28,585 nucleotides of DNA, taken from IMG/VR virus record IMGVR_UViG_3300030419_007499, positions 43,123 through 71,707 of that record; one strand, given 5' to 3'. Numbering within the stretch: the first letter of the stretch is position 1; each line of letters starts with the position of its first letter. The notes beneath the pieces are model-generated. The model did not search any database. It saw only the letters and a program-made list of their open reading frames with translations, and had not been told where the DNA came from. This DNA is from a virus. The translations under genes and the position numbers were made by a program. Shown in pieces: positions 3,312 through 25,579 of the stretch.

Positions 3312-3734
3312 ATGAACATAGAAATTAAAAAGCTACATGACGATGCTTATCTTCCGTCGAGAAATAGCTCTGGCGATGCTGGGTACGATTTGTACGCAAT
3401 TGGCCACGATGTTGTTAGAGCTGGAGAAAGAAAACTTGTAAACACAGGGGTTAGCATTGCCATTCCCCATGGGTATTATGGCAGAATTGCCCCTAGATCA
3501 GGTTTGGCCCTTAATCATGGGATAGATATTTTAGCTGGAGTTGTTGATTCTGGATACAGAGGGGAAATTTGCGCGCTTTTAGTCAACCTAGGGGACAAAA
3601 ACTTTGCTTACAGAAAAGGAGATAGAATAGCCCAACTTATTATCGAAAAATGCCACGACGTTAGTTGGAAGCAAGTTCAAGAACTTAATGGTACGCATAG
3701 AGGCGACGATGGATTTGGAAGTTCTGGGGATTGA
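3312..3734 (+). CDS. dut: Deoxyuridine 5'-triphosphate nucleotidohydrolase (dUTPase)
   Basis: This is a trimeric-type dUTPase of 140 residues. It hydrolyses dUTP to dUMP, keeping uracil out of DNA and feeding thymidylate synthesis by ThyX (6312). All five family motifs are visible in order: SSGDAGYDLYA, APRSGLALNHG, the uracil-binding GIDILAGVVDSGYRGE, KGDRIAQLII and the C-terminal P-loop-like RGDDGFGSSG. The start at 3312 gives MNIEIKKLHDDAYLP, the normal family beginning; a longer frame from 3267 would run through the end of nrdA and the promoter motif. Its stop codon lies inside the -35 element of the nrdB promoter. Confidence 0.95.
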   Translation: MNIEIKKLHDDAYLPSRNSSGDAGYDLYAIGHDVVRAGERKLVNTGVSIAIPHGYYGRIAPRSGLALNHGIDILAGVVDSGYRGEICALLVNLGDKNFAYRKGDRIAQLIIEKCHDVSWKQVQELNGTHRGDDGFGSSGD

Positions 3735-3759
3735 CATACAAACCAATATCTGTTATAAT
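3731..3759 (+). promoter_or_regulatory. Leaderless promoter of nrdB
   Basis: Perfect consensus TTGACA (3731-3736), 17-base spacer, TATAAT (3754-3759). The nrdB ATG begins at 3766, only 6 bases after the -10, so the expected transcription start falls on the start codon. There is no room for a ribosome binding site. The -35 overlaps the dut stop codon. Confidence 0.85.
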
Positions 3760-3765
3760 ATTTAA

Positions 3766-4770
3766 ATGAAGAGCGGAAATCTCCTAGAAAAAGAAACTGC
3801 AGGCGTTAACCAAATCTTGCCCCACAAACACAAATGGGCTTGGGAATTGTACGAACAGGCAATAAAAAACAATTGGGTTCCAACTGAAGTCCCAATGGCT
3901 AAAGATGTCCAAAATTGGAAAAACTCCAAATCAGATTTAAGCGAAGACGAAAGATTAGTAATCAAAAGATGTTTAGGTTTTTTTGCTGGCAGCGAATCTC
4001 TAGTCGCCAACAATTTAATGACTCTTGCCAAGTTTATTACTGATCCAGAATGCAGGCAGTATATGGCTCGACAAATGTATGAGGAGTGTTTACATAATCA
4101 TACTATTGTTTATATATGCGACAGTTTAAGTTTAGATATTAAAGAGGTTTACGAAGCTTATGCGAGCATTCCTTCCATCAAGGAAAAAGACGAGTTTTTA
4201 ATGGAGGTTACAAGCGACCTCAATAGGCAAGAATTTTCAACACAAACGCTAGAAGGCAAAAGAGAGCTTATAAAAGCTGCGTTTACCTACTGGATTGTTT
4301 GCGAAGGAACTTTCTTTTTTAGTGGTTTTGCTATGCTTTTAGCATTATCAGATAAAATCCCAGGAATTGCCGAACAAATTCAATACACCCTCAGAGATGA
4401 AAGTTTGCACATTAAATTCGGTACAAATCTTCTCAATAAACTTAAAGAGCAATATCCATCAACTTGGACCAAATCTTTTGAAAAAGAACTAACAAAGATA
4501 GTGCAAAAAGCGGTAGAGTTAGAAATCAAATATGCCGAAGATGTTTTGCCTAGAGGGATTTTAGGCTTAAATTCTTCAATGTTTGTTAGTTATATGCAGT
4601 TTATAGCCAACAGAAGACTTGAAGCGCTAGATATGGAGTTTAGATACGAAAGCGATTCTAACCCGTTCCCTTGGTTAAGTGAGGTGATTGATCTTAAAAA
4701 GCAAAAGAATTTCTTTGAAACTAGAGTGATCGACTACCAAGATCATTCTGCACTAGAAGATGATTTTTAA
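3766..4770 (+). CDS. nrdB: Ribonucleotide reductase beta subunit, class Ic-like, radical Tyr replaced by Ile
   Basis: The 334-residue metallocofactor subunit supplies the oxidising equivalent to NrdA. The dimetal ligands are all present: E77 (GSESL), E107 and H110 (YEECLHNHT), E180 (CEGTFFF), E212 and H215 (LRDESLH). A Glu rather than Asp as first ligand and the overall sequence (KWAWELY, NNWVPTEVPM, GFF.GSESLV.NN, LPRGILGL, KNFFETRV) resemble class Ic proteins such as that of Chlamydia trachomatis, which uses a Mn/Fe centre and has Phe where others carry the radical Tyr. Here that position, four residues after H110, is Ile114 (codon 4105-4107). A tyrosyl radical at this site is therefore impossible. 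The radical-free Mn/Fe mechanism is inferred, not shown. Confidence 0.95.
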   Translation: MKSGNLLEKETAGVNQILPHKHKWAWELYEQAIKNNWVPTEVPMAKDVQNWKNSKSDLSEDERLVIKRCLGFFAGSESLVANNLMTLAKFITDPECRQYMARQMYEECLHNHTIVYICDSLSLDIKEVYEAYASIPSIKEKDEFLMEVTSDLNRQEFSTQTLEGKRELIKAAFTYWIVCEGTFFFSGFAMLLALSDKIPGIAEQIQYTLRDESLHIKFGTNLLNKLKEQYPSTWTKSFEKELTKIVQKAVELEIKYAEDVLPRGILGLNSSMFVSYMQFIANRRLEALDMEFRYESDSNPFPWLSEVIDLKKQKNFFETRVIDYQDHSALEDDF

Positions 4771-4805
4771 TTTTTTTTAAAAAAAATAGATAAATTTAAT
4801 TTTAT

Positions 4806-4814
4806 GTGTAATAT
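4806..4814 (+). promoter_or_regulatory. GTGTAAT-type promoter motif, 7 bases before start
   Basis: GTGTAATAT; the TGTAAT core (4807-4812) lies 7 bases before the ATG at 4820. No -35 is visible. An A/T-only tract (about 4771-4800) precedes it. Confidence 0.55.
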
Positions 4815-4819
4815 ATGAT

Positions 4820-5287
4820 ATGGCATTACAAGTAACAGTTACAGGAGATAATGGGCTAGATATTAGCTATTGGAAGATTTCAGACATATCTAATCAATTT
4901 GACGGGAATAAGATAGACCTCAGATTTAGCATGAATGGCTATAAAGACGCAGATTGGAGAGCTAAAGATGCATCAGCAAAAACTTTGACATTTCATGTTT
5001 TAAGTCAATTTGACGGAAGCCCAGCCGTTCTTTATAACGACTCAGACGAATCCAATGGCGACATTCCAGTGGGAAAAAGCGTTGGAGACGTAAAGACGGC
5101 GGCAGTTCCTGCAGGCACCAACCCTGCAGACAGGTCGGCTACAATCTTAAATAATACAAGCGGAGATCTCAGGGCACCATTGTACGCATGGCTTAAAACG
5201 CACAACGCCACCGCAACAGACGGCCCAGCAGATGATTACGGAAACGGTTCTCAGGTCGTAAACTGGTCTTCTGCCACAGACGTTTAA
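4820..5287 (+). CDS. Hypothetical protein, possible virion component
   Basis: A 155-residue protein beginning MALQVTVTGDNGLDISYWKI, rich in Thr, Asn, Asp, Ala and Gly, with no signal peptide or membrane segment. The alternating pattern of the first 60 residues suggests beta-sandwich structure, and small proteins opening in this way are common among phage tail-associated genes. That resemblance is by eye only. It stands alone, with a GTGTAAT motif in front and a strong intrinsic terminator behind, which suggests separately controlled and probably high expression, as for an abundant virion protein. No catalytic motif was recognised. Confidence 0.75.
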   Translation: MALQVTVTGDNGLDISYWKISDISNQFDGNKIDLRFSMNGYKDADWRAKDASAKTLTFHVLSQFDGSPAVLYNDSDESNGDIPVGKSVGDVKTAAVPAGTNPADRSATILNNTSGDLRAPLYAWLKTHNATATDGPADDYGNGSQVVNWSSATDV

Positions 5288-5303
5288 TAACCCTTAAAAC
5301 TAA

Positions 5304-5337
5304 ATGCCCCAGTTAACTGTTGCTGGGGTATTTTTTT
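5304..5337 (+). terminator. Intrinsic terminator
   Basis: A hairpin with arms ATGCCCCAG (5304-5312) and CTGGGGTAT (5323-5331, one G-U pair) has a 10-base loop and is followed by a run of T to 5337. It closes the transcript of the 4820 gene 17 bases after its stop. From here to 5456 there is only A/T-rich sequence without a gene. Confidence 0.88.
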
Positions 5338-5456
5338 ATCGGACTGGGCAATAATTCCCAAATTTTTTGTAAATATTTCCCATAAATATTTTTTTTAAAA
5401 AAGTTTTAATAAAAACACTAGTAAGCAGCTAAATTTCACATTGGTATGGTTTTTGC

Positions 5457-5466
5457 TGTAATATTA
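5457..5466 (+). promoter_or_regulatory. TGTAAT-type promoter motif
   Basis: TGTAATATTA (5457-5466), 10 bases before the ATG at 5473. A poor -35 (TTCACA, 5435-5440, 16-base spacing) can be proposed. The motif lies inside the longer frame that starts at 5446, which supports the 5473 start. Confidence 0.5.
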
Positions 5467-5472
5467 ATTACC

Positions 5473-5991: not shown

Positions 5992-5994
5992 TAC

Positions 5995-6011
5995 TTGACA
6001 TATATTGTCAA
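5995..6011. repeat. Inverted repeat over the -35, possible operator
   Basis: TTGACA-TATAT-TGTCAA: perfect 6-bp arms around a 5-base centre, with the left arm being the -35 hexamer itself. A dimeric repressor bound here would block the promoter. Function is inferred from position only. Confidence 0.4.
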
Positions 6012-6022
6012 TCTGCTATAAT
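5995..6022 (+). promoter_or_regulatory. Leaderless promoter of the 6030 membrane-protein gene
   Basis: TTGACA (5995-6000), 16-base spacer, TATAAT (6017-6022). The ATG at 6030 lies 7 bases after the -10, so the mRNA would be leaderless or nearly so. A 6-bp inverted repeat overlaps the -35. Confidence 0.85.
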
Positions 6023-6029
6023 ATTCCGC

Positions 6030-6263: not shown

Positions 6264-6273
6264 TAAAAAATGA

Positions 6274-6302
6274 TTGACTATCGGCTGGGTAGTTGGTATA
6301 AT
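6274..6302 (+). promoter_or_regulatory. Near-leaderless promoter of thyX
   Basis: TTGACT (6274-6279), 17-base spacer, TATAAT (6297-6302). The thyX ATG is at 6312, 9 bases after the -10, leaving at most a 2-3 base leader. Confidence 0.85.
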
Positions 6303-6311
6303 AACTAGCAC

Positions 6312-10898: not shown

Positions 10899-11309
10899 AT
10901 GGAATTTAAAACAATATCTGGCTCAATCAAACGAGTCAAAAATATAAGAAAAAGAATCATAGACTGGGACTCGCCCAGTAAAAGTAAACGACAAAGAGAA
11001 GTAAAAAAATTTTTAAAAAAATTCTGGCAGAGCCATGTTGTCTTTGAAGAATTTCCAGTTGCAGGCACTAGGCTCAGCATTGACTTTTACAACGCTAATA
11101 AAAGAATAGCCATAGAAGTTCAAGGATCGCAACATACAAAGTATAATAAATTTTTTCATGGAGGTCATAAAAACAACTATTTAGAACAACTTAAAAGAGA
11201 TGAAATAAAATTTAAATTTTGTGAATTAAATGAAATTTCATTAATCGAGATATATGATTCAGATGAAATTAACCTTTCTTTATTTAAAAAGTTTGACATC
11301 ACACTATAA
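10899..11309 (+). CDS. Small PD-(D/E)XK endonuclease (Vsr/DUF559-like)
   Basis: A 136-residue protein with the core of a PD-(D/E)XK nuclease: E in VVFEEFPVAGT, D in LSIDFYN, and E-x-Q in IAIEVQGSQHTKY, then LEQLKRDEIKFKFCELNEISLIEI, which matches the later strands and helices of Vsr/DUF559-like enzymes. The N-terminal 45 residues are very basic (KRVKNIRKRI, SKSKRQREVKKFLKKF) and may bind DNA. It could be a nicking enzyme, a Holliday junction or branch nuclease, or a repair enzyme. The position in the recombination/replication block favours branch processing, but that is inference. The -35 of the next promoter lies inside its 3' end. Confidence 0.8.
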   Translation: MEFKTISGSIKRVKNIRKRIIDWDSPSKSKRQREVKKFLKKFWQSHVVFEEFPVAGTRLSIDFYNANKRIAIEVQGSQHTKYNKFFHGGHKNNYLEQLKRDEIKFKFCELNEISLIEIYDSDEINLSLFKKFDITL

Positions 11310-11321
11310 ATAGTGTAAAAT
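11293..11321 (+). promoter_or_regulatory. Leaderless promoter of the 11328 gene
   Basis: TTGACA (11293-11298), 17-base spacer, TAAAAT (11316-11321); ATG 6 bases later at 11328. The sequence also contains TAGTGTAAAAT, so the two motif classes coincide here. The spacer holds a perfect inverted repeat. Confidence 0.85.
11301..11316. repeat. Perfect 16-bp palindrome between -35 and -10, operator candidate
   Basis: ACACTAT-AA-ATAGTGT: two 7-bp arms with a 2-base centre, filling the promoter spacer. The place is typical of repressor binding sites. The right half ATAGTGT is the same string that begins several of the AGTGTAA motifs elsewhere in the window. Confidence 0.5.
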
Positions 11322-11600: not shown

Positions 11601-11629
11601 TTGACGGTAGCTAAAATTTAGTCTATAAT
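11601..11629 (+). promoter_or_regulatory. Leaderless promoter of the helicase-primase operon
   Basis: TTGACG (11601-11606), 17-base spacer, TATAAT (11624-11629). The helicase ATG at 11636 follows after 6 bases. It would drive helicase, primase and RecB-like nuclease, whose coding regions overlap. Confidence 0.85.
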
Positions 11630-11635: not shown

Positions 11636-13126
11636 ATGATTTTTTCGCTAGAGCTAGAAAGACAATTGCTTGCTGGTTTAATTAAATACCCTCACAAATA
11701 TTCGGATATTTCAACACTTACTACTTCCGAGGATTTTTATTCAGAAGATTCAGTTGTTCATAAAACAATCTTTAATACTCTCGCCCAAGCTATAGAAAAT
11801 GGCGAAAATGTAAATGAGGCTACGGTCGCCCACAGAGTATTATCTTTAGGGATTTCGTTTGAAGATAATATAGGTATCGGCGATTATATTAATTCTTTAG
11901 GATTAATAAAAATAAGCGAAAACTCTATTTTACATGTAGCAAAAGAATTAAAAAAGATGACCGTAAGAAGGCAGCTTGCTTCTTGTGGAGAGAGAATTTC
12001 AAAAACCATGCATAAACTAGATTCTTCGGAATCTTTTAATGACATAGTGTCTAAAGCCGATAAGCTTTACAACGGACAAGTTAATTTATATGATGTTGGC
12101 GATAGAAAGCCAGAAAACATTTTTGATGAAATGAAAGAATGGATTGAGTTTAGGGGGGAAAATCCAATTGAAGAGTTTGGCATGATGGGACCTCATAAAA
12201 GAGTCAATGAACTATATGGCTCTTTATTGAGGCCTGGCAATATTACAGTAATATGCGCCCGAGCTGGAGTTGGAAAAACGCAATTCTGCATGGACTTTGC
12301 AACAAAAATAAGCGCAGATTATAGTGTTCCAGTTCTACATTTTGACAATGGAGAAATGAGTAAAGAAGAATTGATAGTGAGGCAATGTGCTGCATTATCA
12401 AAAATACCAGTTCATCTACTTGAAACAGGCTTGTGGCGCCAAGCTGGCAACGATATAGTTAAAAAAGTAAGAGAAGTCTGGAATAAAGTTAAGGACATGA
12501 AGTTTTTCTATTACAATGTTGCGGGAATGAGCTCGGAAGATATGATCAACTTATTAAAAAGATTTTATTTTTCCGAAGTTGGCAGAGGAAAGCAAATGAT
12601 ATTTTCTTTTGATTATATTAAAACCACTTCCGAGTCAAACGAAAAAAACAGATCCGAATGGGAGCTAGTTGGGAACATGGTTCAAAGATTTAAAGATTGT
12701 ATTCATAGAGATATAAAGTTCGATGGAGAGCCAGTAATATCTATGATTACAAGTGTTCAAAGCAATCGACAGGGAATTGTGAACAATCGTCGTGCAGAAA
12801 ATATTGTTGATGATGAATCTATATTTTCTTTGTCAGATCGAATTATTCAGTTTGCATCACACGCATTTATATTACGCAAAAAGACTGAAGATGAAATGGA
12901 ACAAGAACCAAATTTTGGTACCCACAAGTTTAAATGTGTTAAGTATAGGCATCTTGGACAAGATGTAAACGGCGCGGTTAATCCAATTAGAATGCCAGAC
13001 GGTTCGTTACAACAAAATTATATTCATCTTGATTTTAATAATTTTCACATTACAGAAAAAGGCGATCTCCGAGACTTAGTGAGATACCTAAACCAAAACC
13101 CACAAATTGTCGAAGATGGAAACTAA
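11636..13126 (+). CDS. dnaB: Replicative DNA helicase, DnaB-like
   Basis: A 496-residue hexameric helicase. The N-terminal DnaB domain is at about residues 1-110, beginning SLELERQLLAGLIKYP, the usual first helix. The RecA-like motor domain starts near residue 185 with LYGSLLRPGNITVICARA. Walker A is ARAGVGKT (208-215), LHFDNGEMSKEEL is the H1a region with catalytic Glu, Walker B is MIFSFDYIK, and the SVQSNRQG region and RIIQFASHAFILRKK correspond to the later DnaB motifs. It unwinds the replication fork and should pair with the primase encoded next, whose start lies within its last codons. The length is typical for phage members. Confidence 0.92.
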   Translation: MIFSLELERQLLAGLIKYPHKYSDISTLTTSEDFYSEDSVVHKTIFNTLAQAIENGENVNEATVAHRVLSLGISFEDNIGIGDYINSLGLIKISENSILHVAKELKKMTVRRQLASCGERISKTMHKLDSSESFNDIVSKADKLYNGQVNLYDVGDRKPENIFDEMKEWIEFRGENPIEEFGMMGPHKRVNELYGSLLRPGNITVICARAGVGKTQFCMDFATKISADYSVPVLHFDNGEMSKEELIVRQCAALSKIPVHLLETGLWRQAGNDIVKKVREVWNKVKDMKFFYYNVAGMSSEDMINLLKRFYFSEVGRGKQMIFSFDYIKTTSESNEKNRSEWELVGNMVQRFKDCIHRDIKFDGEPVISMITSVQSNRQGIVNNRRAENIVDDESIFSLSDRIIQFASHAFILRKKTEDEMEQEPNFGTHKFKCVKYRHLGQDVNGAVNPIRMPDGSLQQNYIHLDFNNFHITEKGDLRDLVRYLNQNPQIVEDGN

Positions 13127-15215: not shown

Positions 15216-15244
15216 TTGACTTCAATTGTTATTTGTGGTAACAT
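15216..15244 (+). promoter_or_regulatory. Leaderless promoter of the PHP-cupin-exonuclease operon
   Basis: TTGACT (15216-15221), 17-base spacer, TAACAT (15239-15244), then 6 bases to the ATG at 15251. Confidence 0.8.
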
Positions 15245-15250: not shown

Positions 15251-16015
15251 ATGTTGCCTTTATTCAAAAGCCACTTTTCTATTGGTAAATCAATATTAAC
15301 TTTAAATTTACCGTCACAATGTACCGACGGAGGACCAGACAGCATATTTAAAATAGCTAACGACAATAATCTCGACGAACTCATTTTAGTAGAAGACTCC
15401 TTTAATGGCTTTTTACAAGCAAAGAAAAATGCAGAGGAATTAGAGATTCAGCTAATATTTGGCATAAGATTTGTAATTGCTGAAGATATCGACGAAAAAC
15501 TAAGCAAAGATAACAACAACCAACACAAAATTATTATCTTTGCAAAAAACGACGAAGGGATAAAGTCTTTATATAAAATATACAACAGGGCCTTTGCGAG
15601 AGGATTTGGTCATTTAGATTACAAATCTCTTAAAGAGCTTTGGAACAAAAATCTAAAGTTGGCAGTTCCATTTTATGATTCTTTTTTATTTGCAAATTTA
15701 ATTTCTTTTTCTAACTGCGTTCCAGACTTTACTTTTTGTAAACCAACTTTTTTTATTGAGAGCAATAACTTACCTTTTGACTTTTTAGTCGAACCAATAG
15801 TAAAGAAGTACTGCAAAGAAAATAAGTTTTCAATACAAAAAGTAAAGACAATTTATTATAACAAAAAAAGAGACGCAAAAGCCTTTCAAACATACAAATG
15901 CTTATGCTCTAGAGGTTTTGGTAGGCAAAAAACTTTAGAGGAACCAAACTTAGACCACTTTGGTAGTGATGAGTTTTGTTTCGAAAGCTGGCAAAAAGAA
16001 AATGAAAATAGATAA
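15251..16015 (+). CDS. Stand-alone PHP domain of DNA polymerase III alpha, degenerate
   Basis: A 254-residue protein that matches the first quarter of bacterial DnaE and nothing else. Recognisable in order are LFKSHFSIGKSILTLN (the LHxHSxYSLLDG motif), FNGFLQAKKNAEELEIQLIFGIRF (the usual G..EFYKAAKKAGIKPIIGCE), IIIFAKNDEGIKSLYKIYNRAF (LLAKNxxGYxNLxKL) and a C-terminal LEEPNLDHFGSDEFCFES that equals the DnaE region before the palm. Most PHP metal ligands are lost: the first His is Lys, the TDHG block is EDSF and the GCE Glu is Arg. So it is probably a structural partner that rebuilds the polymerase with the core at 17046, rather than a nuclease. Overlaps the cupin by 14 bases. Confidence 0.8.
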   Translation: MLPLFKSHFSIGKSILTLNLPSQCTDGGPDSIFKIANDNNLDELILVEDSFNGFLQAKKNAEELEIQLIFGIRFVIAEDIDEKLSKDNNNQHKIIIFAKNDEGIKSLYKIYNRAFARGFGHLDYKSLKELWNKNLKLAVPFYDSFLFANLISFSNCVPDFTFCKPTFFIESNNLPFDFLVEPIVKKYCKENKFSIQKVKTIYYNKKRDAKAFQTYKCLCSRGFGRQKTLEEPNLDHFGSDEFCFESWQKENENR

Positions 16016-16382: not shown

Positions 16383-17020
16383 AAGACGAATTATTAAGAT
16401 ACAACAACAAGCAAAAATATTTAATTTTTGATTTTGAAACTTGCAATTTAAACCTAGTCAACCCAAGTAATCGCCCATGGCAGTTATCATTTATCATTGC
16501 AACAAAAGATAAAGTTTTGGAAAAGCATGACCACTTCTTAAAATGGAAAGACTTAAAGGTTTCCGAGGGAGCTAAAGCTGCAACTAGATTTGATTATACA
16601 AAATATAAGATTAAGTCAGAAGAGCCATTACCAATACTTAGAAAATTTGATAAAGTGCTTTACGATAAAAAATATAAAATTGTTGGGCACAACTTATTAG
16701 GCTTTGACATTTATGTGCATAATGCTTTAAGAAAGACATTAGGATTAAAAAGTGATTTTTCGTATTTACACAGACTAATAGATACAAACTGTCTTGCCAA
16801 AGCATACAGAGAAGATATTAAATTCGATGTAAAGGATTCTTTTTTAAGTTGGCAGTTTAGGTTGGATGGATATATAAAAAGAGGCTTAAAGACTAATTTA
16901 GCAGCAATGCTTAAGGAATTTGATATAAACTTCGATAAAGACAAACTACATGATTCAATGTACGATATTCAAATGAATTTAGAAGTGTTTAAAAAGCTTC
17001 TTTGGAAGATTGACATTTGA
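16379..17020 (+). CDS. DEDDh 3'-5' exonuclease, DnaQ-like (probable proofreading subunit)
   Basis: A 213-residue exonuclease of the DnaQ superfamily. Exo I is YLIFDFETCNLN (Asp and Glu), Exo II is IVGHNLLGFDIYV, and Exo III is KLHDSMYDIQMNLEVF with His and Asp spaced as in DEDDh enzymes. It lies immediately before the polymerase core gene, so it probably removes misincorporated bases for that polymerase, as epsilon does for alpha in bacteria. The start at 16379 forms an ATGA overlap with the cupin; an ATG at 16349 also exists in frame but lies inside cupin coding sequence. There is no obvious clamp-binding or alpha-binding tail of the epsilon type. Confidence 0.87.
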   Translation: MKDELLRYNNKQKYLIFDFETCNLNLVNPSNRPWQLSFIIATKDKVLEKHDHFLKWKDLKVSEGAKAATRFDYTKYKIKSEEPLPILRKFDKVLYDKKYKIVGHNLLGFDIYVHNALRKTLGLKSDFSYLHRLIDTNCLAKAYREDIKFDVKDSFLSWQFRLDGYIKRGLKTNLAAMLKEFDINFDKDKLHDSMYDIQMNLEVFKKLLWKIDI

Positions 17021-17038
17021 GTTTTTTTATGTTACTAT
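17010..17038 (+). promoter_or_regulatory. Leaderless promoter of the polymerase core gene
   Basis: TTGACA (17010-17015), 17-base spacer, TACTAT (17033-17038), 7 bases to the ATG at 17046. It begins inside the exonuclease 3' end and shows that the longer frame from 17010 is not the real start. Confidence 0.8.
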
Positions 17039-17045: not shown

Positions 17046-19631
17046 ATGAGCTTCACTAAAGACTTTTCTACATATCAAGATTGCGCACCACCTGGGGTGA
17101 GGTTGCCAAAAATCGAAATTGAGAGTAGGTATTATAACGAGTTAAATCTCTCAGAAGATACTTCTAATTATGATTTTTTAAGAGCTCTTTGCCTAGATGG
17201 AGTAAAGAAAAAAGGGATTGACAAAAAGAAAAATTCAAAAGAATATTACGCCAGAGTTCGAATGGAGCTCAAAATTTTAAAAGATTTAGGATTTATTGAT
17301 TACATACTTTTAAATTGGGACATATTACATTTTTGTCAAGAACAAGATATTCCCACTGGACCAGGCCGTGGTAGTGCAGCGGGTTCTCTTGTGTTATTTT
17401 TAATTGGTGTTACACAAGTAGACCCAATTAAATACGATCTTTTCTTTGAGAGATTTGTGAGTAAATCTAGAGCCAGAAAAATAGAAAAAGACGGAGTTAC
17501 TTTCCTAGATGGATCACTACTTGCTGATGTAGACAATGATATCGCATACGAAAGACGCGCAGAAGTAATTGACTATATAAAAAGAAAACATCCAAATCGA
17601 ACATGTAAAATTTTAACCCTTAATACGTTAAGTGGCAAATTATGTATAAAAGAATGCGGCAAGATCGTTGGATCTTACTCAGAACAAGAAGTTAATGAGG
17701 TAAGCGATACTATACCCAAAAAATTTGGAAAAGTTGCACCATTAACTCAAGCTTATAATGAAAGTGAACAATTCAAAGAATGGGTAGACCAGAACCAAGA
17801 GATTTTTGAAGTCGCTAAAAAGTTAGAGGGTTTAAATAAAAACACTGGGGTTCACCCATCTGGTATTGCAATTTCATATTATCCATTAGACGAGATTTGC
17901 CCATTACAGCAAACTAATGATGGTGAGTTGGTAAGTGGATATGATATGAATTGGGTTGCAGAGCTCATGGTCAAGTTCGATATTTTAGGTCTCAGAACAT
18001 TGAGTGTCATTTATGATGTTTGTAAACAATTAAACTTCGACATGAACGAAGTAAACCTAGAAGACAAAAATATATATAAGAATTTAAGAAATGAATTTAG
18101 GCATCCACAAGGCTTGTTCCAGATAGAAGCTTATACAAACTTTAATGTTTGTAAAAAGATTGCCCCTAAAAACTTGGAGCAGCTTAGTGCTGTAGTCGCA
18201 ATAGCTAGGCCAGGTGCATTGGAATTTACAGACAGCTATGTTGAATACGCTAAGTCTGGCGATTTTCAAAGCGTGCATCCAGTGTTTGATGAAATCTTGG
18301 ATTATACTGGAGGGATTCCATTATATCAAGAACAGTTAATGAAGATGGCTGTAAAGGTTGGTTTTACACTCGACGAAGCGGAACAGTTAAGAAGGATTGT
18401 CGGTAAAAAGAAAGTCGACCAAATGCCCGCATGGAAAGAAAAGATCTTTGAAAAAGTTGAACAAAACAGATTAACCAATGCTTGGACAGGCCATCGTGGA
18501 GATGAAGTCGCCGATGTTTTATGGCAAGTTGCAGAAGATAGCGCAAATTATTCATTTAACAAATCCCATTCAATAGCATATGCAACTCTAGCAGCATGGA
18601 CAACTTATTTAAAATTTAAACACCCCAAAGAGTTTTTCTTAAGTCTACTTAAGATGACCCAGTTTGAGCCTGCTCCGCATGAGGAGATAGCTAAAATAAC
18701 CACAGAGCTTCCTTATTTTGGAATTGAGTTACTCCCGCCAGATTTAGGCAGGTCGGATATGGACTTTAAGATAGAAGGCGACAACATTAGATATGGGCTT
18801 AATAGCATAAAAGGAGTTAGCCAGAAGACTTTACAAGCGTTAAAAGATTTTAGAGAATCAGAAACGCCAACAAAGTACGATATTTTTATAAGCGCAAAAC
18901 AAGCGGGAATCAATATTGGAGTTTTATCTGCTTTAATACAAGCTGGAGCGCTAAATGCATATAAAACTAAACGCTCACGACTCGTGTTAGAAGCACAATC
19001 ATTTAATTTACTCACCGATAGAGAAAAGAGAAATTTTGTACAATTGGGAGAAAAATTTAAATATGACGTGTTAAAGACGATAGAGGCAGCGACAAAAGGA
19101 GAATTACTTGCAGATGACAACAGGAGACTAATGTCTGACAGCAGGTTTGTAACTTTTAAAAAGAAGTATAGCAAGTATAAAGAAATTTGGGAAAAGAACA
19201 GGCTATATGAAGACTTTGCCAATTGGTTTTTTGAGAAAAAACTTTTAGGCTACTCTTATAGCGTGAAATTAAAAACTGTTTTCTCAAAAGAAAAGCCTCT
19301 CATGAATACCTATGAAGTTCAAGCGTCTGAAAATAATGAAAGAGTATACATGGTAGGAGTAGTAGAGGATTGTTTCAAGAGACAAAGTAGAAATGGCAAT
19401 AAATATGCCAAGCTAGAAGTCTCCGACGAATTAGGTTTTATAAACGGTATGTTGCTAGATACAGCTAGACAAACAAAGCTAACAGAATATCTTAATCAGA
19501 ATGATAACAAATTACCAAAAAAAGAAAGCGTTGTATATCTTGAAGGACGCAAAGGAGATGACATAATCTTTTTAGATAAAGTTGTTATATACGATGACAA
19601 AATCTACATGAAATTAAGTGATTTAAAATAG
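17046..19631 (+). CDS. dnaE: DNA polymerase III alpha subunit core, lacking the PHP domain
   Basis: An 861-residue C-family polymerase that starts about where the palm begins in DnaE. Seen in order: YARVRMELKILKDLGFIDYIL, the GPGRGSAAGS motif (105-114), the catalytic ADVDND (D161, D163), the third catalytic Asp in KFDILGLRTL (D312), IPLYQEQLMKMA, GHRGDEVADVLWQVAEDSANYSF with NKSHSIAYATLAAWTTYLK, then the helix-hairpin-helix region YGLNSIKGVSQKTLQAL. An OB-fold-like part near the end has VYMVGVVEDCF. Family members carry PHP at the N-terminus; here it is a separate gene at 15251. All three catalytic Asp are kept, so it should be the phage replicase. Own promoter at 17010; Clp gene follows after 14 bases. 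Confidence 0.94.
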   Translation: MSFTKDFSTYQDCAPPGVRLPKIEIESRYYNELNLSEDTSNYDFLRALCLDGVKKKGIDKKKNSKEYYARVRMELKILKDLGFIDYILLNWDILHFCQEQDIPTGPGRGSAAGSLVLFLIGVTQVDPIKYDLFFERFVSKSRARKIEKDGVTFLDGSLLADVDNDIAYERRAEVIDYIKRKHPNRTCKILTLNTLSGKLCIKECGKIVGSYSEQEVNEVSDTIPKKFGKVAPLTQAYNESEQFKEWVDQNQEIFEVAKKLEGLNKNTGVHPSGIAISYYPLDEICPLQQTNDGELVSGYDMNWVAELMVKFDILGLRTLSVIYDVCKQLNFDMNEVNLEDKNIYKNLRNEFRHPQGLFQIEAYTNFNVCKKIAPKNLEQLSAVVAIARPGALEFTDSYVEYAKSGDFQSVHPVFDEILDYTGGIPLYQEQLMKMAVKVGFTLDEAEQLRRIVGKKKVDQMPAWKEKIFEKVEQNRLTNAWTGHRGDEVADVLWQVAEDSANYSFNKSHSIAYATLAAWTTYLKFKHPKEFFLSLLKMTQFEPAPHEEIAKITTELPYFGIELLPPDLGRSDMDFKIEGDNIRYGLNSIKGVSQKTLQALKDFRESETPTKYDIFISAKQAGINIGVLSALIQAGALNAYKTKRSRLVLEAQSFNLLTDREKRNFVQLGEKFKYDVLKTIEAATKGELLADDNRRLMSDSRFVTFKKKYSKYKEIWEKNRLYEDFANWFFEKKLLGYSYSVKLKTVFSKEKPLMNTYEVQASENNERVYMVGVVEDCFKRQSRNGNKYAKLEVSDELGFINGMLLDTARQTKLTEYLNQNDNKLPKKESVVYLEGRKGDDIIFLDKVVIYDDKIYMKLSDLK

Positions 19632-19640
19632 TGTAATTTT
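19630..19640 (+). promoter_or_regulatory. AGTGTAAT-type promoter motif before the Clp gene
   Basis: AGTGTAATTTT, overlapping the polymerase stop codon; the TGTAAT core ends 8 bases before the ATG at 19646. No good -35 is seen. Confidence 0.55.
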
Positions 19641-19645: not shown

Positions 19646-22036
19646 ATGGATAAAAATCAAATCAATTTTACGCCAAAAGCGCAAAAAATAGTGAAAAAAG
19701 CCAAAGCCGAAGCTTTTTCACTCAATACCAAGTCTGCTGATTTGGAACATCTTTTTCTTGCGTTTCTTGATTTAGAAAATTCTATAATCAACGATATCCT
19801 CGAAGACGTCGAACTTAACAAAGATGAATTAAGACAATTAGTCATTAAAGAATTTAAAAAAGACACAATACAGCTAGAGCCCAACGAAAAGATAACATAT
19901 AGTGTGAACATTAAAAACGCGCTAACTAACGCTAGAAAGCTTGCATTAAAATTAGGGCATTCATATGTAAGTTGTGAACATTTATTTTATAGTTTTTTAA
20001 AAATTGAACAGTGCCCCGCAATTGAATTTTTTGAAACACTAGGCATCGACACCAACGAAGTTCTAAATAAACTTGAAAAATATTTCGACATTGAAGAGTT
20101 GGAGCAAGAAGAAACGGAGCCCCCACAGGCAAATGATAAAGCTCCTATTGCATTATCTTCCTTTGCAGTAAACTGTAACGCTGTCGCTTACGAGCAAGGC
20201 TATGACCCTATGATTGGCAGAGAAAAAGAAGTTGAAGAGCTTGCCGAAATTTTATGCAGAAGAAATAAAAATAATCCAATTTTGCTCGGTGAAGCAGGCG
20301 TAGGAAAGACCGCTTTGGTTGAAGCTCTAGCTCAAAAAATAGTAGCCCGAGAAGCTCCAGAGTTTCTGCTAAGTAAACAAATTTTTTCTTTAGACTTGGG
20401 CTCCTTAATAGCTGGTACGAAATATCGCGGACAGTTCGAAGAAAGACTTAAAAAAATTATCGAAGAACTCTCAACAAATGAAGAGTTTATTATTTTTATC
20501 GACGAGATACATACTTTGATTGGAGCTGGCGGAGCCGAAGGAACTATGGATGCAGCAAATATGCTAAAACCCTTGCTTGCGAGGGGAAAAGTTAGATGCA
20601 TAGGAGCGACAACAATTTCTGAATATAGAAAAACAATCGCAAAAGATGGAGGCCTAGACAGAAGGTTTGAAAAACTACATATATCTGAGCCAACAAAAAC
20701 CCATGCAATAAAAATACTAGAAGGGTTAAAGTCAAAATACCAAGAGTTTCATAACGTTGTTTATAAAGACCATCACTGTGAACTTGCAGTTAATTTATCT
20801 AGTAGGTATATTACTGACAGATATTTGCCAGACAAAGCGTTGGACGTTATTGACCAAGCTGGAGCTAAAACTAAAACAAGATGTTACAAAAGGCCAGAAA
20901 TAGCAAAAAACCTAGAAAAGCTAATGGAAACTTGCGAGACAGAAAGTGAGCTTAAGAAAATGACAAAAAGATATGAGGAGGTAATGATTGAATGGGCCTC
21001 AAAAATTGCGTCAAAGCCGCCAAAAGTGACTGACGATGACATTTATAGAGTGATATGCCAAAAAGCTAAGATACCACTTTCCGAACTAAAACAAGACGAA
21101 GCTAAAGTTTTTCTAAATTTAGAAAAAAATCTAAACAAATTGATTATTGGCCAAAGTGATGCAGTTAAAAAAGTTTCTCTTTCAATTTTAAGAGCTAAAT
21201 CTGGAGTAAGAGACGAAAATAAACCGATTGGAAGCTTTTTATTACTAGGAACTACGGGAGTTGGTAAAACTTTTACCGCAAAAATGTTGGCAAAGTCTGT
21301 ATTTGGAGGTGAAGATAATATGATTCGCGTAGACATGAGTGAATTTGCAGAAAAATCTTCTGTGAGCAGACTCATAGGCGCATCACCAGGCTACGTTGGC
21401 TTTGAGGATGGTGGCTATCTTACAGAAGCGATAAGAAAAAACCCGTATGCGGTAGTTTTATTTGATGAAATTGAAAAAGCTCACCCAGAAGCTTATCAAA
21501 TTTTATTACAAATAATGGACGAAGGCGAACTCAAGGACTCAAATGGAAAAATTGCCAATTTCAAAAACTCCATTATCTTGCTTACAGGTAATATTGGGCA
21601 CAACTCATTTAACTCTCAAAAGACCATGGGTTTTGGCGGTAAAGATGAACAGCCCACATTTGCGGAAAGCAGAATTAACGTAATGGGTGAAGCAAAAAAG
21701 TTTTTTAAACCAGAGTTTGTTAACAGATTAGACGAGATTATTATCTTTAAACCTCTCTCTAAAGAGAATAACAAAAAAATAGCACGCCTAGAGCTAAAAA
21801 AACTATCCGAAAGACTAGCAAAACAAGATATACATATAGAATATACGCCTAAAGTCTTGGATTTTTTAGTGGAAAAGGGCACCAGCGCTAAAAATGGAGC
21901 TAGATTTCTAAAAAGAGCTATTCAAAAAAATGTTGAAGACAAAATATCCACAGCAATTCTTAACAAAAGAAAAGGCCACAACCAAACACTAAAAATAACA
22001 AAAAAGGGTGGACAACTCGTGGTCGCGGAATTATAA
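19646..22036 (+). CDS. ClpC/ClpA-like AAA+ unfoldase
   Basis: A 796-residue class I Clp ATPase. Two N-terminal Clp repeats lie at about residues 6-145. The first AAA+ module has Walker A GEAGVGKT (215-222) and Walker B IIFIDEIHTL. A very short middle domain follows (YEEVMIEWASKI region), so it is not a ClpB disaggregase. The second module has Walker A GTTGVGKT (535-542), Walker B VVLFDEIEKAH and FFKPEFVNRLDEIIIF. Before the latter, TMGFGG sits where ClpC carries its ClpP-docking xGF loop, so it may dock on host ClpP. Expected role: ATP-driven protein unfolding and perhaps targeted degradation of host or phage proteins. No clpP was found in the window. Confidence 0.93.
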   Translation: MDKNQINFTPKAQKIVKKAKAEAFSLNTKSADLEHLFLAFLDLENSIINDILEDVELNKDELRQLVIKEFKKDTIQLEPNEKITYSVNIKNALTNARKLALKLGHSYVSCEHLFYSFLKIEQCPAIEFFETLGIDTNEVLNKLEKYFDIEELEQEETEPPQANDKAPIALSSFAVNCNAVAYEQGYDPMIGREKEVEELAEILCRRNKNNPILLGEAGVGKTALVEALAQKIVAREAPEFLLSKQIFSLDLGSLIAGTKYRGQFEERLKKIIEELSTNEEFIIFIDEIHTLIGAGGAEGTMDAANMLKPLLARGKVRCIGATTISEYRKTIAKDGGLDRRFEKLHISEPTKTHAIKILEGLKSKYQEFHNVVYKDHHCELAVNLSSRYITDRYLPDKALDVIDQAGAKTKTRCYKRPEIAKNLEKLMETCETESELKKMTKRYEEVMIEWASKIASKPPKVTDDDIYRVICQKAKIPLSELKQDEAKVFLNLEKNLNKLIIGQSDAVKKVSLSILRAKSGVRDENKPIGSFLLLGTTGVGKTFTAKMLAKSVFGGEDNMIRVDMSEFAEKSSVSRLIGASPGYVGFEDGGYLTEAIRKNPYAVVLFDEIEKAHPEAYQILLQIMDEGELKDSNGKIANFKNSIILLTGNIGHNSFNSQKTMGFGGKDEQPTFAESRINVMGEAKKFFKPEFVNRLDEIIIFKPLSKENNKKIARLELKKLSERLAKQDIHIEYTPKVLDFLVEKGTSAKNGARFLKRAIQKNVEDKISTAILNKRKGHNQTLKITKKGGQLVVAEL

Positions 22037-22037
22037 T

Positions 22038-22047
22038 AGTGTAATTA
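22038..22047 (+). promoter_or_regulatory. AGTGTAAT-type promoter motif before the holin-like gene
   Basis: AGTGTAATTA, with TGTAAT at 22040-22045 exactly 7 bases before the ATG at 22053. A TATAAT also occurs at 22032-22037. Confidence 0.55.
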
Positions 22048-22052
22048 TTATT

Positions 22053-22247: not shown

Positions 22248-22257
22248 AGATTAAAGC

Positions 22258-22286
22258 TTGATTTTTTTAAAACTCCGTAGTATCAT
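22258..22286 (+). promoter_or_regulatory. Promoter embedded in a terminator hairpin
   Basis: TTGATT (22258-22263), 17-base spacer, TATCAT (22281-22286). The -10 is within the loop of the hairpin at 22269-22298. Transcripts starting here would begin about 22293, lack the left arm and so escape termination, with about 9 bases before the dCMP deaminase ATG at 22302. Confidence 0.65.
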
Positions 22287-22301
22287 ATGCGGAGTTTTTT
22301 T
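22269..22301 (+). terminator. Intrinsic terminator ending the Clp/holin transcript
   Basis: Arms AAAACTCCG (22269-22277) and CGGAGTTTT (22290-22298) form a perfect 9-bp stem with a 12-base loop, and the T run extends to 22301, touching the next start codon. Confidence 0.85.
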
Positions 22302-22730
22302 ATGCCGAATCAAGAACTATTAGATATCACCTACATGAAAATGGCCCGATGTTGGGCGGCTCTTTCTAAAGCTGAAAGAAAACAAGTTGGTTGTTTGATT
22401 GTTAAAGATGGAGCGATTATAAGTGACGGGTATAACGGAACCCCCTCTGGGTTTGATAATATTTGCGAATATGAATCTTCCGTAGGAACCTTAGTTACCA
22501 AACCAGAAGTTCTTCACGCAGAAAGCAATGCTATCTCAAAACTAGCCAAATCTACCCAAAGTTCTAATGGTGCAGTTTTATACGCAACTTGTTCTCCATG
22601 CCTTGAGTGTTCGAAATTAATTATTCAATGTGGAATATCTAGAGTCGTTTATGGGGAAAAATACAGAAGCAATCAAGGTATAGAGTTATTGAAAAAAGCT
22701 GGTATTAAAATATTATTTCTAAATGAGTGA
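22302..22730 (+). CDS. dCMP deaminase
   Basis: A 142-residue zinc-dependent deoxycytidylate deaminase that makes dUMP, the ThyX substrate. The zinc/catalytic motifs are H72-A-E74 (VLHAESNAI) and P99-C100-x-x-C103 (CSPCLECSKLI). The region GYNGTPSGFDNICEY binds the nucleotide in this family, and YMKMARCWAALSKAERKQVG is the normal beginning. The ATG at 22302 is chosen because an earlier ATG (22287) directly abuts the -10 and cannot be transcribed from this promoter. With dUTPase and ThyX it completes dTMP supply. The stop overlaps the next gene by 8 bases. Confidence 0.94.
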   Translation: MPNQELLDITYMKMARCWAALSKAERKQVGCLIVKDGAIISDGYNGTPSGFDNICEYESSVGTLVTKPEVLHAESNAISKLAKSTQSSNGAVLYATCSPCLECSKLIIQCGISRVVYGEKYRSNQGIELLKKAGIKILFLNE

Positions 22731-23248: not shown

Positions 23249-23273
23249 AGGTTTTCTTAAAACATTACTACTC

Positions 23274-23306
23274 AAGGCTCCTTTTTGGAGCCTTTTTTTG
23301 TTTTTT
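23274..23306 (+). terminator. Intrinsic terminator
   Basis: AAGGCTCC (23274-23281), loop of five T, GGAGCCTT (23287-23294), then a long T run interrupted by one G to 23306. It separates the 23027 gene from the structural-type block; the next promoter motif starts 2 bases later. Confidence 0.92.
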
Positions 23307-23307
23307 A

Positions 23308-23317
23308 GTGTAAATAT
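23308..23317 (+). promoter_or_regulatory. AGTGTAAA-type promoter motif
   Basis: AGTGTAAATA with the core TGTAAA (23309-23314) 7 bases before the ATG at 23322. It follows the terminator at once and has no -35; the position where one should be is the terminator stem. Confidence 0.6.
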
Positions 23318-23321
23318 TTTC

Positions 23322-23579
23322 ATGAAAGGTCAGCCACATTCTTTATTTCAAGTCGCAGGAAGCGCAATTGATCCTGGAACAGGTAATGCAATTTATATAA
23401 CATCAATTCATAACGGAACTGATTCCGTCATCGCTGCAGGAGTTACTCTTTCCTCTAGCGATAATATTATATTAGGTAAAAATGCATGCCTAACATTTAA
23501 CCCACCAATGAGATGCGCTACTAGTGAAACAGCTACGCCTGGTACAGGGGTTACTGTAACATATTTCATAGCAAAATAA
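23322..23579 (+). CDS. Small hypothetical protein, possible virion component
   Basis: An 85-residue protein rich in Ser, Thr, Gly and Ala, with a beta pattern (GSAIDPGTGNAIYITSIHNGTDSVIAAGVTL). It has two Cys and no signal or membrane segment. A longer frame upstream passes through the terminator and promoter, so the start at 23322 is preferred. It heads the block that runs through the mini-MscS gene to the structural-type proteins, so a capsid decoration or head-tail role is plausible but not shown by any motif. Confidence 0.72.
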   Translation: MKGQPHSLFQVAGSAIDPGTGNAIYITSIHNGTDSVIAAGVTLSSSDNIILGKNACLTFNPPMRCATSETATPGTGVTVTYFIAK

Positions 23580-23589
23580 AGGGCACGCA

Positions 23590-23919
23590 ATGGAACAAGA
23601 AGTAATTCAGCAGGCCGCAGAAGGATTTATTGGCAAATATGGTTGGCTTTTGTTAGCTGGTGCAGCCACAATAATTTTTAAAGACATTGTTTCACAGTTC
23701 GCAGCAGGTTTGACAATTTGGTTTAGCAAAGAATATACTCCAGATGACATAGTTTTAATAGGTGGTAGAAAAGCTAGAATTGTTAGAGTCGGCATGAAAA
23801 GCACAACTTTTTACTTTCCAGATACTAGCACTAAAAAGACTGTATCCAACGCAACTTTCACAGGTTTAGATATCGAAAGAAAAATAGAGGACTGGGAAGA
23901 TGATGCAAAGAAAAAATAA
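23590..23919 (+). CDS. Mini-MscS-like membrane protein (copy 1)
   Basis: A 109-residue protein resembling only the pore helix and beta domain of MscS-type mechanosensitive channels. The segment GWLLLAGAATIIFKDIVSQFAAGLTIWF matches TM3 with its bend (bacterial LALQGSLSNLAAGVLLVMF). The part YTPDDIVLIGGRKARIVRVGMKSTTFYFPDTSTKKTVSNATF matches the beta domain (GEYVDLGGVAGTV...STT...DG...IPN). TM1-TM2 and the C-terminal alpha-beta cage are missing, so whether it forms a channel is unknown. A second copy is at 27278. The start follows a weak AAAGGG. The gene overlaps the next by 20 bases. Confidence 0.75.
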   Translation: MEQEVIQQAAEGFIGKYGWLLLAGAATIIFKDIVSQFAAGLTIWFSKEYTPDDIVLIGGRKARIVRVGMKSTTFYFPDTSTKKTVSNATFTGLDIERKIEDWEDDAKKK

Positions 23920-25009
23920 AGAATTAATCGTAGATTTTTCGGATAAAATTCGTGAAAAATCTTTTTCTACTTCTAGGCCTGGCCCAAAGTCGGCCGCACA
24001 AACTCCTGCAAAACCCGAGGAGAGGAAAAGAGGCTCTAAAGTTAACAAACCAGAATCGGCAGCAACAAACAAAGCATCAATAACATTCTCAGAAAAAACA
24101 ACGCAAGCGTTAAAGAATAAAGTTGTCGAACATAATAAAAAATACTCCAAGAAAGTCACTCTAGGGCAACTTAAAAAAGTTTACAGACGAGGGGCTGGCG
24201 CATTTTCTACTTCCCATAGGCCAGGCCAGTCCAGAGCCTCTTGGGCCATGGCTAGAGTTAATATGTTTTTAAAAATGATGCGCGGAGGAAAAGTAAAAGA
24301 ATCTTATAAAAAAGCGGATCAAGACATAGCAAAGGCAAGTGAAATATTGTTTGATTCAGAAGGTAAAAAGAATCCACCTTTAAACAAGCCATTCAGAACT
24401 CCAAAAGGACCGAAAAAATTCTCTGTTTATGTTAAAAATGAAAAAGGCAATATTGTAAAAGTTAACTTTGGCGATCCAAACATGGAGATTAAACGTGATG
24501 ACCCTGCTCGTCGAAAAAGTTTTCGTGCCCGACATAATTGCGACAACCCAGGCCCAAAAACTAAAGCACGTTATTGGTCGTGCCGCATGTGGAGCAAAAA
24601 AAGCGTCACTCAGGTGACCAAAGGTTCCACAGAGCAGGAGTTTTATACAGAGTTTTTAGATTTACAAGATTATATTTTAGAAGTTTTTCCAGAGTATGCC
24701 TCGGCAGAAGTTATTAACGAAAAAGATGATTGCGGTTGCGGCTGTGAGCATTCTGAAGCTGCGCATGAAGGCGAAGTAAGAATGCTAAAAGCTCAACTTA
24801 AAAAAGCTTATGATCAAATAGCGGAAATGGTACAAATGCTTCAGTCTATGCCAGACGATACAGATGTTGAAGCATGGCTGCAATCTAAGATTACTAAAAT
24901 TTCGGACTATACTAACAGTGTTCACGGCTATATGAAATATTATGAAGACGATGAAACGAACACTGCTTATGAAATGGACGAAGATGAAATGAAGGACATG
25001 CAAGAATAA
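23900..25009 (+). CDS. Phage structural/prohead-associated protein (conserved)
   Basis: A 369-residue protein made of recognisable phage blocks. Residues 70-125 contain TLGQLKKVYRRGAGAF, then RPGQSRASWAMARVNMFL, and residues 180-225 contain FGDPNMEIKRDDPARRKSF followed by RARHNCDNPGPKTKARYWSC; both recur in tailed-phage proteins, especially T4-like marine phages. A short CGCGC cluster (about 276) comes before a coiled-coil region (EVRMLKAQLKKAYDQIAEM). The end, SKITKISDYTNSVHGYMKYYEDD, resembles the tails of phage prohead-core or structural proteins. The N-terminus is basic and disordered. I infer a head-assembly or virion role; no enzyme motif was seen. It is probably co-transcribed with the mini-MscS gene. 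Confidence 0.83.
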   Translation: MMQRKNKELIVDFSDKIREKSFSTSRPGPKSAAQTPAKPEERKRGSKVNKPESAATNKASITFSEKTTQALKNKVVEHNKKYSKKVTLGQLKKVYRRGAGAFSTSHRPGQSRASWAMARVNMFLKMMRGGKVKESYKKADQDIAKASEILFDSEGKKNPPLNKPFRTPKGPKKFSVYVKNEKGNIVKVNFGDPNMEIKRDDPARRKSFRARHNCDNPGPKTKARYWSCRMWSKKSVTQVTKGSTEQEFYTEFLDLQDYILEVFPEYASAEVINEKDDCGCGCEHSEAAHEGEVRMLKAQLKKAYDQIAEMVQMLQSMPDDTDVEAWLQSKITKISDYTNSVHGYMKYYEDDETNTAYEMDEDEMKDMQE

Positions 25010-25032
25010 ACCTCAAAAGTAAAAGGTAACCC

Positions 25033-25098
25033 ATGTGCACGAATAAAGACTGCTTTAATGACACTTGCCAAGGAGAGTGCACAAAAAAATCTAAGTAA
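25033..25098 (+). CDS. Cys-rich microprotein, 21 residues
   Basis: A short frame MCTNKDCFNDTCQGECTKKSK with four Cys at residues 2, 7, 12 and 16. It lies exactly between the structural gene (stop 25009) and the next gene (ATG 25100), with one base to the latter, and has AAAAGG 7-8 bases upstream, one of the few Shine-Dalgarno-like sites in the window. A metal-binding or disulfide microprotein is possible; alternatively it is a leader peptide that couples translation to the 25100 gene. No homologue was recognised. Confidence 0.45.
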   Translation: MCTNKDCFNDTCQGECTKKSK

Positions 25099-25099
25099 C

Positions 25100-25303
25100 A
25101 TGCCATTACCTTCAAAAAGAAAAGACGAAAAACAAAGCGAATTCATGTCACGCTGCATGAGCGACGACATAATGAAAAAAGAATATAAAGACAATAAGCA
25201 AAGAGTTGCCGTTTGCTTAACTCAATACCGCACTAGGAAAAAGTCCAAAGGGAAGGCGTCCTGGGATGATGTAAGAAAAGGCGACACTCTGGGCTTGATT
25301 TAA
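25100..25303 (+). CDS. Small conserved phage protein
   Basis: A 67-residue protein starting MPLPSKRKDEKQSEFMSRCMSD, with KQRVAVCLTQY later. This pattern (MPLPxxRKxE...FMxRCM...xQRxAVCxxxW/Y) is frequent in tailed phages, both as a free small protein and as a segment near prohead-protease or structural genes, so the start at 25100 is preferred over the longer frame from 25058. The C-terminus is basic and ends WDDVRKGDTLGLI. A virion-assembly-associated role is inferred from that pattern and neighbours. The last codons overlap the -35 of the next promoter. Confidence 0.8.
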   Translation: MPLPSKRKDEKQSEFMSRCMSDDIMKKEYKDNKQRVAVCLTQYRTRKKSKGKASWDDVRKGDTLGLI

Positions 25304-25322
25304 TGATTTTAATCCATATAAT
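25295..25322 (+). promoter_or_regulatory. Leaderless promoter of the 25328 gene
   Basis: TTGATT (25295-25300), 16-base spacer, TATAAT (25317-25322), and the ATG at 25328 just 5 bases later. The -35 overlaps the end of the previous gene. Confidence 0.75.
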
Positions 25323-25327
25323 CTAAT

Positions 25328-25579
25328 ATGGAATTAAGACAAGGATATCTTCAGAGCACATATAATCATTACATCGCAGAAAGAGACAAACATTTACTTG
25401 ATTTAGAAGTCTATCTCTCTAACCCTGTGGGAGTTGGGGAACACTCAGATATTGGAGAAGAGATTAGAAAAAAAGTTGAACAAGTCGACAGATACGATTC
25501 TATTATTTCCACTTTAATTGCCAGATATGGAGATCAAATGTTAGATAAATCTCAAGAAGATCAAAACGCCAAAAATTAA
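25328..25579 (+). CDS. Small conserved phage protein, helical
   Basis: An 83-residue, mainly helical acidic protein. The part VYLSNPVGVGEHSDIGEEIRKKVEQVDRYDSIISTL recalls a short family found in marine T4-like phages and cyanophages, in which an NPVGVGEHPD-like motif links two helices. Its function is unknown. No signal or membrane segment is present. It has a leaderless promoter of its own, and its stop codon overlaps the TTAAGT arm of an inverted repeat leading to the pseudopilin gene. Confidence 0.78.
   Translation: MELRQGYLQSTYNHYIAERDKHLLDLEVYLSNPVGVGEHSDIGEEIRKKVEQVDRYDSIISTLIARYGDQMLDKSQEDQNAKN

Follow-up and report, generated by a model that had tools for sequence, protein, structure and literature searches.

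Do the replication genes of an uncultured phage begin their transcripts on the start codon itself? The question is raised by a 28,585-nucleotide stretch of viral DNA (the window), which comprises bases 43,123-71,707 of the IMG/VR record IMGVR_UViG_3300030419_007499 (71,707 bases in total; record label G000). The original prediction, made from the letters of the window, had proposed a leaderless phage transcriptome served by one class of consensus sigma-70 promoters set directly before start codons. The window encodes NrdA, dUTPase, NrdB, ThyX, a RecA-like protein, a DnaB-like helicase, a PDDEXK nuclease, a Clp ATPase, a dCMP deaminase and a split DNA polymerase III, whose PHP protein, exonuclease and alpha subunit each have a gene of their own. 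Our analysis makes it very likely that the window is part of a clade of tailed phages with large genomes, none of them cultured, and that many transcription units of this clade would begin as leaderless mRNAs from promoters of two kinds, here called class A and class B.

Class A sites in the window consist of a TTGAC or TTGAT box, a 16-17 bp spacer and a -10 box, with a start codon 5-9 nt later. All eight sites listed by the original prediction are present in the window (Table 1), with -10-to-start gaps of 5, 6, 6, 6, 6, 7, 7 and 9 nt and spacers of 17 bp, except for 16 bp at 5995 and 25295. Counts of promoter-like words prove nothing here, because when the first 20 kb were scanned for promoters in general the number hardly exceeded that in shuffled sequence (76 against 63.5 ± 8.0); the class A signal in the window is one of placement and quality, not of number. 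The motif lies 4-10 nt before 8 of the 34 curated starts; when the regions upstream of them were dinucleotide-shuffled 2,000 times, it did so before 0.07 starts on average and never before more than 3. Chance is thus an unlikely source, as had been claimed, and the outcome named beforehand as speaking against the idea, an equal rate in shuffled sequence, did not occur.

An IMG/VR scan yielded 52 relatives, most at 60-69% identity and one (L051) at 85%, with contigs of up to 205 kb. Among the INPHARED isolates, the best matches to the polymerase III alpha subunit all fell below 35% identity, and no close isolate was found. The clade set comprised 2,078 starts from 53 records, each start being the first ATG, a mechanical choice that can only dilute the signal. 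Class A motifs precede 208 of these starts, against 7.5 in shuffled upstream regions, and 27 of 8,543 internal in-frame ATGs. The spacer is 17 bp in 186 of the 208. A scan of -10-to-start distances, which the original prediction had suggested, was run over the clade and placed the mode at exactly 6 nt (110/208), with 7 nt in another 39/208. The consensus, CTTGACa, 17 bp and TGnTAnnaT, combines a full -35 box with an extended -10 box, and class A has the features of a sigma-70 promoter, namely TTGACA and TATAAT boxes and a spacer of 17 ± 1 bp. Five long clade genomes hold 102 sites 0-15 nt before starts, where 3.5 were expected and 5 lay on the opposite strand; 58 of these 102 are at exactly 6 nt.

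A strict Shine-Dalgarno (SD) sequence was found in 0 of 382 class A or class B genes. The earlier statement that SD sequences are nearly absent therefore holds for these genes but not clade-wide, where 7.7% of starts carry a strict SD (about 2% in shuffles) and a minority of other genes have one of the AAAGGA type. The idea of a leaderless transcriptome needs the same narrowing: it is strongly supported at these promoters but does not extend to the whole, as fewer than 1% of operon-internal genes carry a class A or class B motif and some genes have an SD. Class A also occurs in arrays of small open reading frames (ORFs), one promoter apiece, at 106-152 kb of G007 and 4-28 kb of G017; these arrays are likely early host-takeover regions.

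Conservation was counted over distinct upstream regions, identical ones having been removed. The DnaB-like helicase is the most telling case among the conserved genes predicted to be leaderless: its orthologs have class A in 26 of 28 regions and TTGA[CT] in 28 of 28. Class A was likewise found before PHP orthologs in 45 of 45 regions and before NrdB orthologs in 11 of 11, and the commonest gap at these three conserved promoters is 6 nt. Operon-internal genes are nearly devoid of it (primase 0/29, RecA 0/15, exonuclease 1/48). Class A is specific to the gene and kept across strongly diverged proteins, and since the sequence between the boxes varies, selection appears to maintain the boxes. Leaderless expression had been claimed for helicase, polymerase, NrdB and ThyX alike; for the clade at large, these counts support helicase and NrdB, but not the other two. 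The polymerase promoter at 17010 recurs in only 2 of 42 orthologs (G000 and L051), the polymerase start elsewhere abutting the exonuclease gene, and no ThyX ortholog was found among the fetched relatives. The promoters at 17010 and 6274 are real, yet they are not general features of the clade. At the 11293 site the orthologs keep GTGTA (22/27) and only 3/27 keep TTGA[CT], so the conserved element there is the overlapping class B element.

If the -10 hexamer occupies positions -12 to -7, transcripts from a promoter with a 6-nt gap would have their +1 on the A of the AUG. Bacterial RNA polymerase favours a pyrimidine at -1 and a purine at +1. The base before the ATG is a pyrimidine in 76% of class A genes with a 6-nt gap and in 81% of those with a 7-nt gap (C in 61%); the figure is 44% among operon-internal genes and 65% among the remaining intergenic starts. 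This excess supports, by motif geometry, initiation at the A of the start codon. The predicted leaderless initiation at class A promoters is strongly supported by four features together: conserved position, a modal gap of exactly 6 nt, a pyrimidine at the initiator and no SD.

While class A is real, the original prediction, with its single promoter class, had overlooked a second one, class B, GTGTA(A/T)(T/A). This element occurs at 174 of the 2,078 starts against 10.2 in shuffles, with a modal gap of 7 nt, and at that gap a pyrimidine precedes the AUG in 59 of 59 cases. Its logo consists of the core GTGTA(A/T)(T/A) in an AT-rich flank, with no -35 or other upstream box, and single-base variants (CTGTA.., GTCTA..) showed no enrichment. 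Upstream of Clp, GTGTA lies within 35 nt in 37 of 43 distinct upstream regions. The class B genes of the long genomes encode tail fibres, a minor tail protein, a protease and nucleotide-sugar or glycan functions; the class A genes encode a clamp loader, endonucleases, a deoxynucleoside monophosphate kinase and long arrays of small ORFs. The class B set is not purely structural: it holds tail and surface genes, yet also Clp and, in the window, NrdA and dUTPase, and because the latter two carry class B elements a split into early and late genes is imperfect. Divergent class B pairs stand back to back in near-palindromic, putatively bidirectional promoter regions at L092:3750-3801, L094:10603-10648 and L056:13394-13440.

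The clade also encodes candidate sigma factors. A Sigma70_r2 protein is present in 21 of 24 clade records. The conserved kind, a sigma-70 family member of about 245 amino acids with a cysteine-rich linker, had no match in isolated phages, and two other sigma-like kinds are also present in the clade. When the conserved kind was modelled, with moderate confidence (mean pLDDT 66), the closest structures in the PDB were chains of sigma factors (best E 8e-4), with low TM-scores. T4 late promoters consist of a -10-only element, TATAAATA, read by the sigma factor gp55. Class B resembles them in being -10-only, without a -35 box, in having structural genes among its putative targets and in the presence of a phage-encoded sigma-70-family factor; it differs in its sequence, GTGTA(A/T)(T/A) instead of TATAAATA, and in being positioned at the start codon. 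The conserved clade sigma is itself unlike gp55 in its cysteine-rich linker and has no detectable sequence match to it.

We propose that at class A promoters host RNA polymerase would begin the transcript on the A of the AUG, the -10 box ending 6 nt before it. Class A would be an early class, read with host sigma and serving DNA metabolism genes and the small-ORF arrays, and class B a late class, read by a phage-encoded sigma in the fashion of T4 late promoters, usually 7-9 nt before the start codon and serving tail, surface, Clp and other genes. Ribosomes would initiate on the 5′-terminal AUG without SD pairing, and downstream operon genes would depend on coupling or on weak SDs. That both systems, early host-sigma and late phage-sigma, fire on the AUG and leave most units leaderless throughout infection has, in our estimate, even chances.

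Several points weigh against this proposal. The predicted start sites rest on motif geometry. A strict class A or class B motif precedes only about 29% of the genes that look like the first of a transcription unit, and 5% of such genes have a strict SD, so other signals exist. In the relatives, class A lies 11-13 nt from the NrdA codon, which amounts to a short leader; the class B distance upstream of Clp spans 1-21 nt, and with such broader distances some class B mRNAs would bear short leaders. The 71.7-kb G000 record itself yielded no sigma gene, and the proposed reading of class B by a phage sigma is a guess drawn only from the co-occurrence of the two. An identification of the class B sigma as T4 gp55 was rejected, a profile comparison of the conserved sigma giving no match.

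Genome compactness alone could put promoters near starts, with transcripts that begin elsewhere or bear ordinary leaders, and phage intergenic gaps are generally short. We rejected this compaction artefact because long intergenic regions (at least 100 nt) show the same placement, 23 of their 41 class A sites being 4-10 nt from the start codon; the exact 6-nt gap of 110/208 sites also argues against it, and we hold it to be highly improbable. Stretches of T4 and SPO1 had no site at 4-10 nt, though few sites occur there: the control stretches (T4, P-SSM2 and SPO1) contain too few class A sites and are illustrative only. Another alternative is that RNA polymerase begins slightly ahead of the AUG, leaving a short 5′ end of 1-10 nt for the ribosome to use. 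The minority gaps of 8-12 nt (about 12 nt for NrdA in relatives, 9 nt for ThyX, and several class B genes) would suit such very short leaders, but the modal gaps of 6 (class A) and 7 (class B) and the -1 pyrimidine put +1 on the A for the majority, and as a general account it seems to us distinctly unlikely. Class B, for its part, might be an operator or an RNA processing or translation signal instead of a promoter: it is without a -35 box, its distance range is wider, and its promoter role is a prediction. Against this stand its promoter-like geometry, with the element ending 7 nt before the AUG and a -1 pyrimidine in 59/59, its rarity in operon-internal genes (<1%), the divergent pairs and the encoded sigma factors, and a non-promoter role for class B appears rather unlikely.

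It is quite possible, at somewhat below even chances, that the pattern reflects a host lineage for which leaderless genes are the norm, an explanation compatible with the two-class proposal. Several phyla have many such genes (PMC3160421, PMC12340547). In host-like contigs of a Woesebacteria metagenome-assembled genome (MAG) that also holds contigs of this phage clade, about 16 of 60 genes have a -10 box 4-9 nt ahead of them and 2 have an SD; this Patescibacteria lineage may have many leaderless genes. On contigs L115, L370 and L114 of that MAG (MreB, TopA and DprA), TATAAT-like boxes stand 4-9 nt before the ATG and SDs are almost absent. The host-lineage explanation leaves class B unexplained, and clade helicases turn up in MAGs from many phyla, relatives being found in MAGs labelled Lokiarchaeota, Flavobacteriaceae, Woesebacteria, Verrucomicrobiales and others; this scatter looks like binning noise. 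The window also encodes a pseudopilin (25594-26574, with a GTG start and a class B element) that among the fetched relatives occurs only in G000. Its best matches are from Verrucomicrobiota (E 5e-20, up to 240 residues), whereas Patescibacteria match its N-terminus only (E 3e-15); a genome scan for the host with the pseudopilin found nothing. Verrucomicrobiota were rejected as a demonstrated leaderless host, as most pattern-hit ATGs there open no long ORF (6/20 do), which counts against the host-lineage explanation too.

Promoters of this kind do not seem confined to the clade. IMG/VR was sampled with the pattern TTGAC-N18-TATAAT-N6-ATG (contigs L126-L245). Among the matches listed, an ORF of at least 50 codons was opened by 73 of 130 with the 6-nt gap (56%), compared with 19 of 121 with a 16-nt gap, and of the 120 contigs in the sample only 28 have a protein in common with the five clade genomes used for comparison. 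This excess in largely unrelated contigs means that such predicted leaderless promoters are not peculiar to the clade, and it suggests that they are common in uncultured viruses outside it.

Some features of the window deserve mention in their own right. The polymerase III trio, PHP protein (15251), DnaQ-like exonuclease (16379) and alpha subunit (17046), is present in nearly all relatives. A promoter-like TTGATT-17-TATCAT site lies within a terminator-like hairpin (ACTCCG...CGGAGT, then a T run) at 22258-22302, directly before the dCMP deaminase gene, so that the same bases would serve as terminator and promoter. Two small membrane proteins are encoded at 23590-23919 (with an MscS beta-domain match) and at 27278-27700 (resembling the first by eye, and with a class B element).

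Table 1. Predicted promoter elements and selected genes of the window, and the conserved sigma-like protein on clade contigs (positions refer to the window unless a contig is named).
Feature	Position	Strand	Details
Class A, TTGACA-17-TATAAT	3731..3759	+	6 nt 5′ of nrdB ATG 3766
Class A, TTGACA-16-TATAAT	5995..6022	+	7 nt 5′ of DUF4282 gene ATG 6030
Class A, TTGACT-17-TATAAT	6274..6302	+	9 nt 5′ of thyX ATG 6312
Class A, TTGACA-17-TAAAAT	11293..11321	+	6 nt 5′ of ORF 11328; overlapped by class B 11313-11319
Class A, TTGACG-17-TATAAT	11601..11629	+	6 nt 5′ of DnaB-like helicase ATG 11636
Class A, TTGACT-17-TAACAT	15216..15244	+	6 nt 5′ of PHP gene ATG 15251
Class A, TTGACA-17-TACTAT	17010..17038	+	7 nt 5′ of polymerase III alpha ATG 17046
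Class A, TTGATT-16-TATAAT	25295..25322	+	5 nt 5′ of ORF 25328
Class B, GTGTAAA	826..832	+	11 nt 5′ of nrdA ATG 844
Class B, GTGTAAT	3293..3299	+	12 nt 5′ of dUTPase ATG 3312
Class B, GTGTAAT	4806..4812	+	7 nt 5′ of ORF 4820
Class B, GTGTAAA	11313..11319	+	8 nt 5′ of ORF 11328
Class B, GTGTAAT	19631..19637	+	8 nt 5′ of Clp ATPase ATG 19646
Class B, GTGTAAT	22039..22045	+	7 nt 5′ of ORF 22053
Class B, GTGTAAA	23308..23314	+	7 nt 5′ of ORF 23322
Class B, GTGTAAA	25580..25586	+	7 nt 5′ of pseudopilin gene GTG 25594
Class B, GTGTAAT	27264..27270	+	7 nt 5′ of MscS-like gene GTG 27278
NrdB	3766..4770	+	Pfam Ribonuc_red_sm
DnaB-like replicative helicase	11636..13126	+	Pfam DnaB_C/DnaB
PHP-domain protein	15251..16015	+	Pfam PHP
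DNA polymerase III alpha	17046..19631	+	Pfam; PHP and exonuclease encoded apart
Clp-family AAA+ ATPase	19646..22036	+	Pfam/NCBIfam; class B gene
Conserved sigma, about 245 amino acids	L084:17543-18322, L075:18969-19679, L097:12971-13714, L089:17317-18015, L101:10335-11072

The mRNA of lambda cI is the classic leaderless phage message beginning at its AUG; it is one gene, whereas the arrangement predicted here is genome-wide. In Deinococcus-Thermus and Actinobacteria, leaderless genes with a -10 box adjoining the ORF are common (PMC3160421, PMC12340547, PMC3898074). Such cellular TA-led genes have TANNNT about 10 bp before the start, transcription from the codon and no SD, a plan that the clade would share: class A places a -10-like TANNNT about 10 bp before starts above the level of shuffles, the mark of TA-led genes (Zheng 2011), and 0/382 class A/B genes have a strict SD. 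TA-led genes are cellular and often have the -10 box only, while the clade is viral and has a full TTGACA, a 17-bp spacer and an extended -10 box. Among phages, most middle and late mRNAs of Thermus phage phiYS40 are leaderless (as reviewed in PMC3594737), and the AR9 paper states that phage transcripts are often leaderless (PMC5312081). phiYS40 is comparable as a phage with systematically leaderless mRNAs, which in the clade are predicted from sequence. It infects, however, a thermophile of a lineage known for leaderless genes, and its leaderless mRNAs are the middle and late ones; in the clade both the putative early and the putative late class appear leaderless by sequence, and class A has full -35 and -10 boxes.

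With phiYS40 as precedent, leaderlessness in a phage is itself not new. New are the clade itself, conservation that holds gene by gene, a complete set of sigma-70 boxes positioned at the AUG and the second, -35-less class likewise placed. Together they make a sequence-only, statistically strong case that leaderless expression would be a standard start of transcription units in a clade without a cultured member. For such genomes they provide an annotation rule for start codons and early genes (the end of the -10 box plus 6 nt gives the start codon), along with a candidate new phage promoter class and candidate sigma factors. If the proposal is true, the phage exploits or reprograms translation from a 5′-AUG (70S-type), and it becomes testable whether the hosts translate leaderless mRNAs themselves or the phage forces them to.

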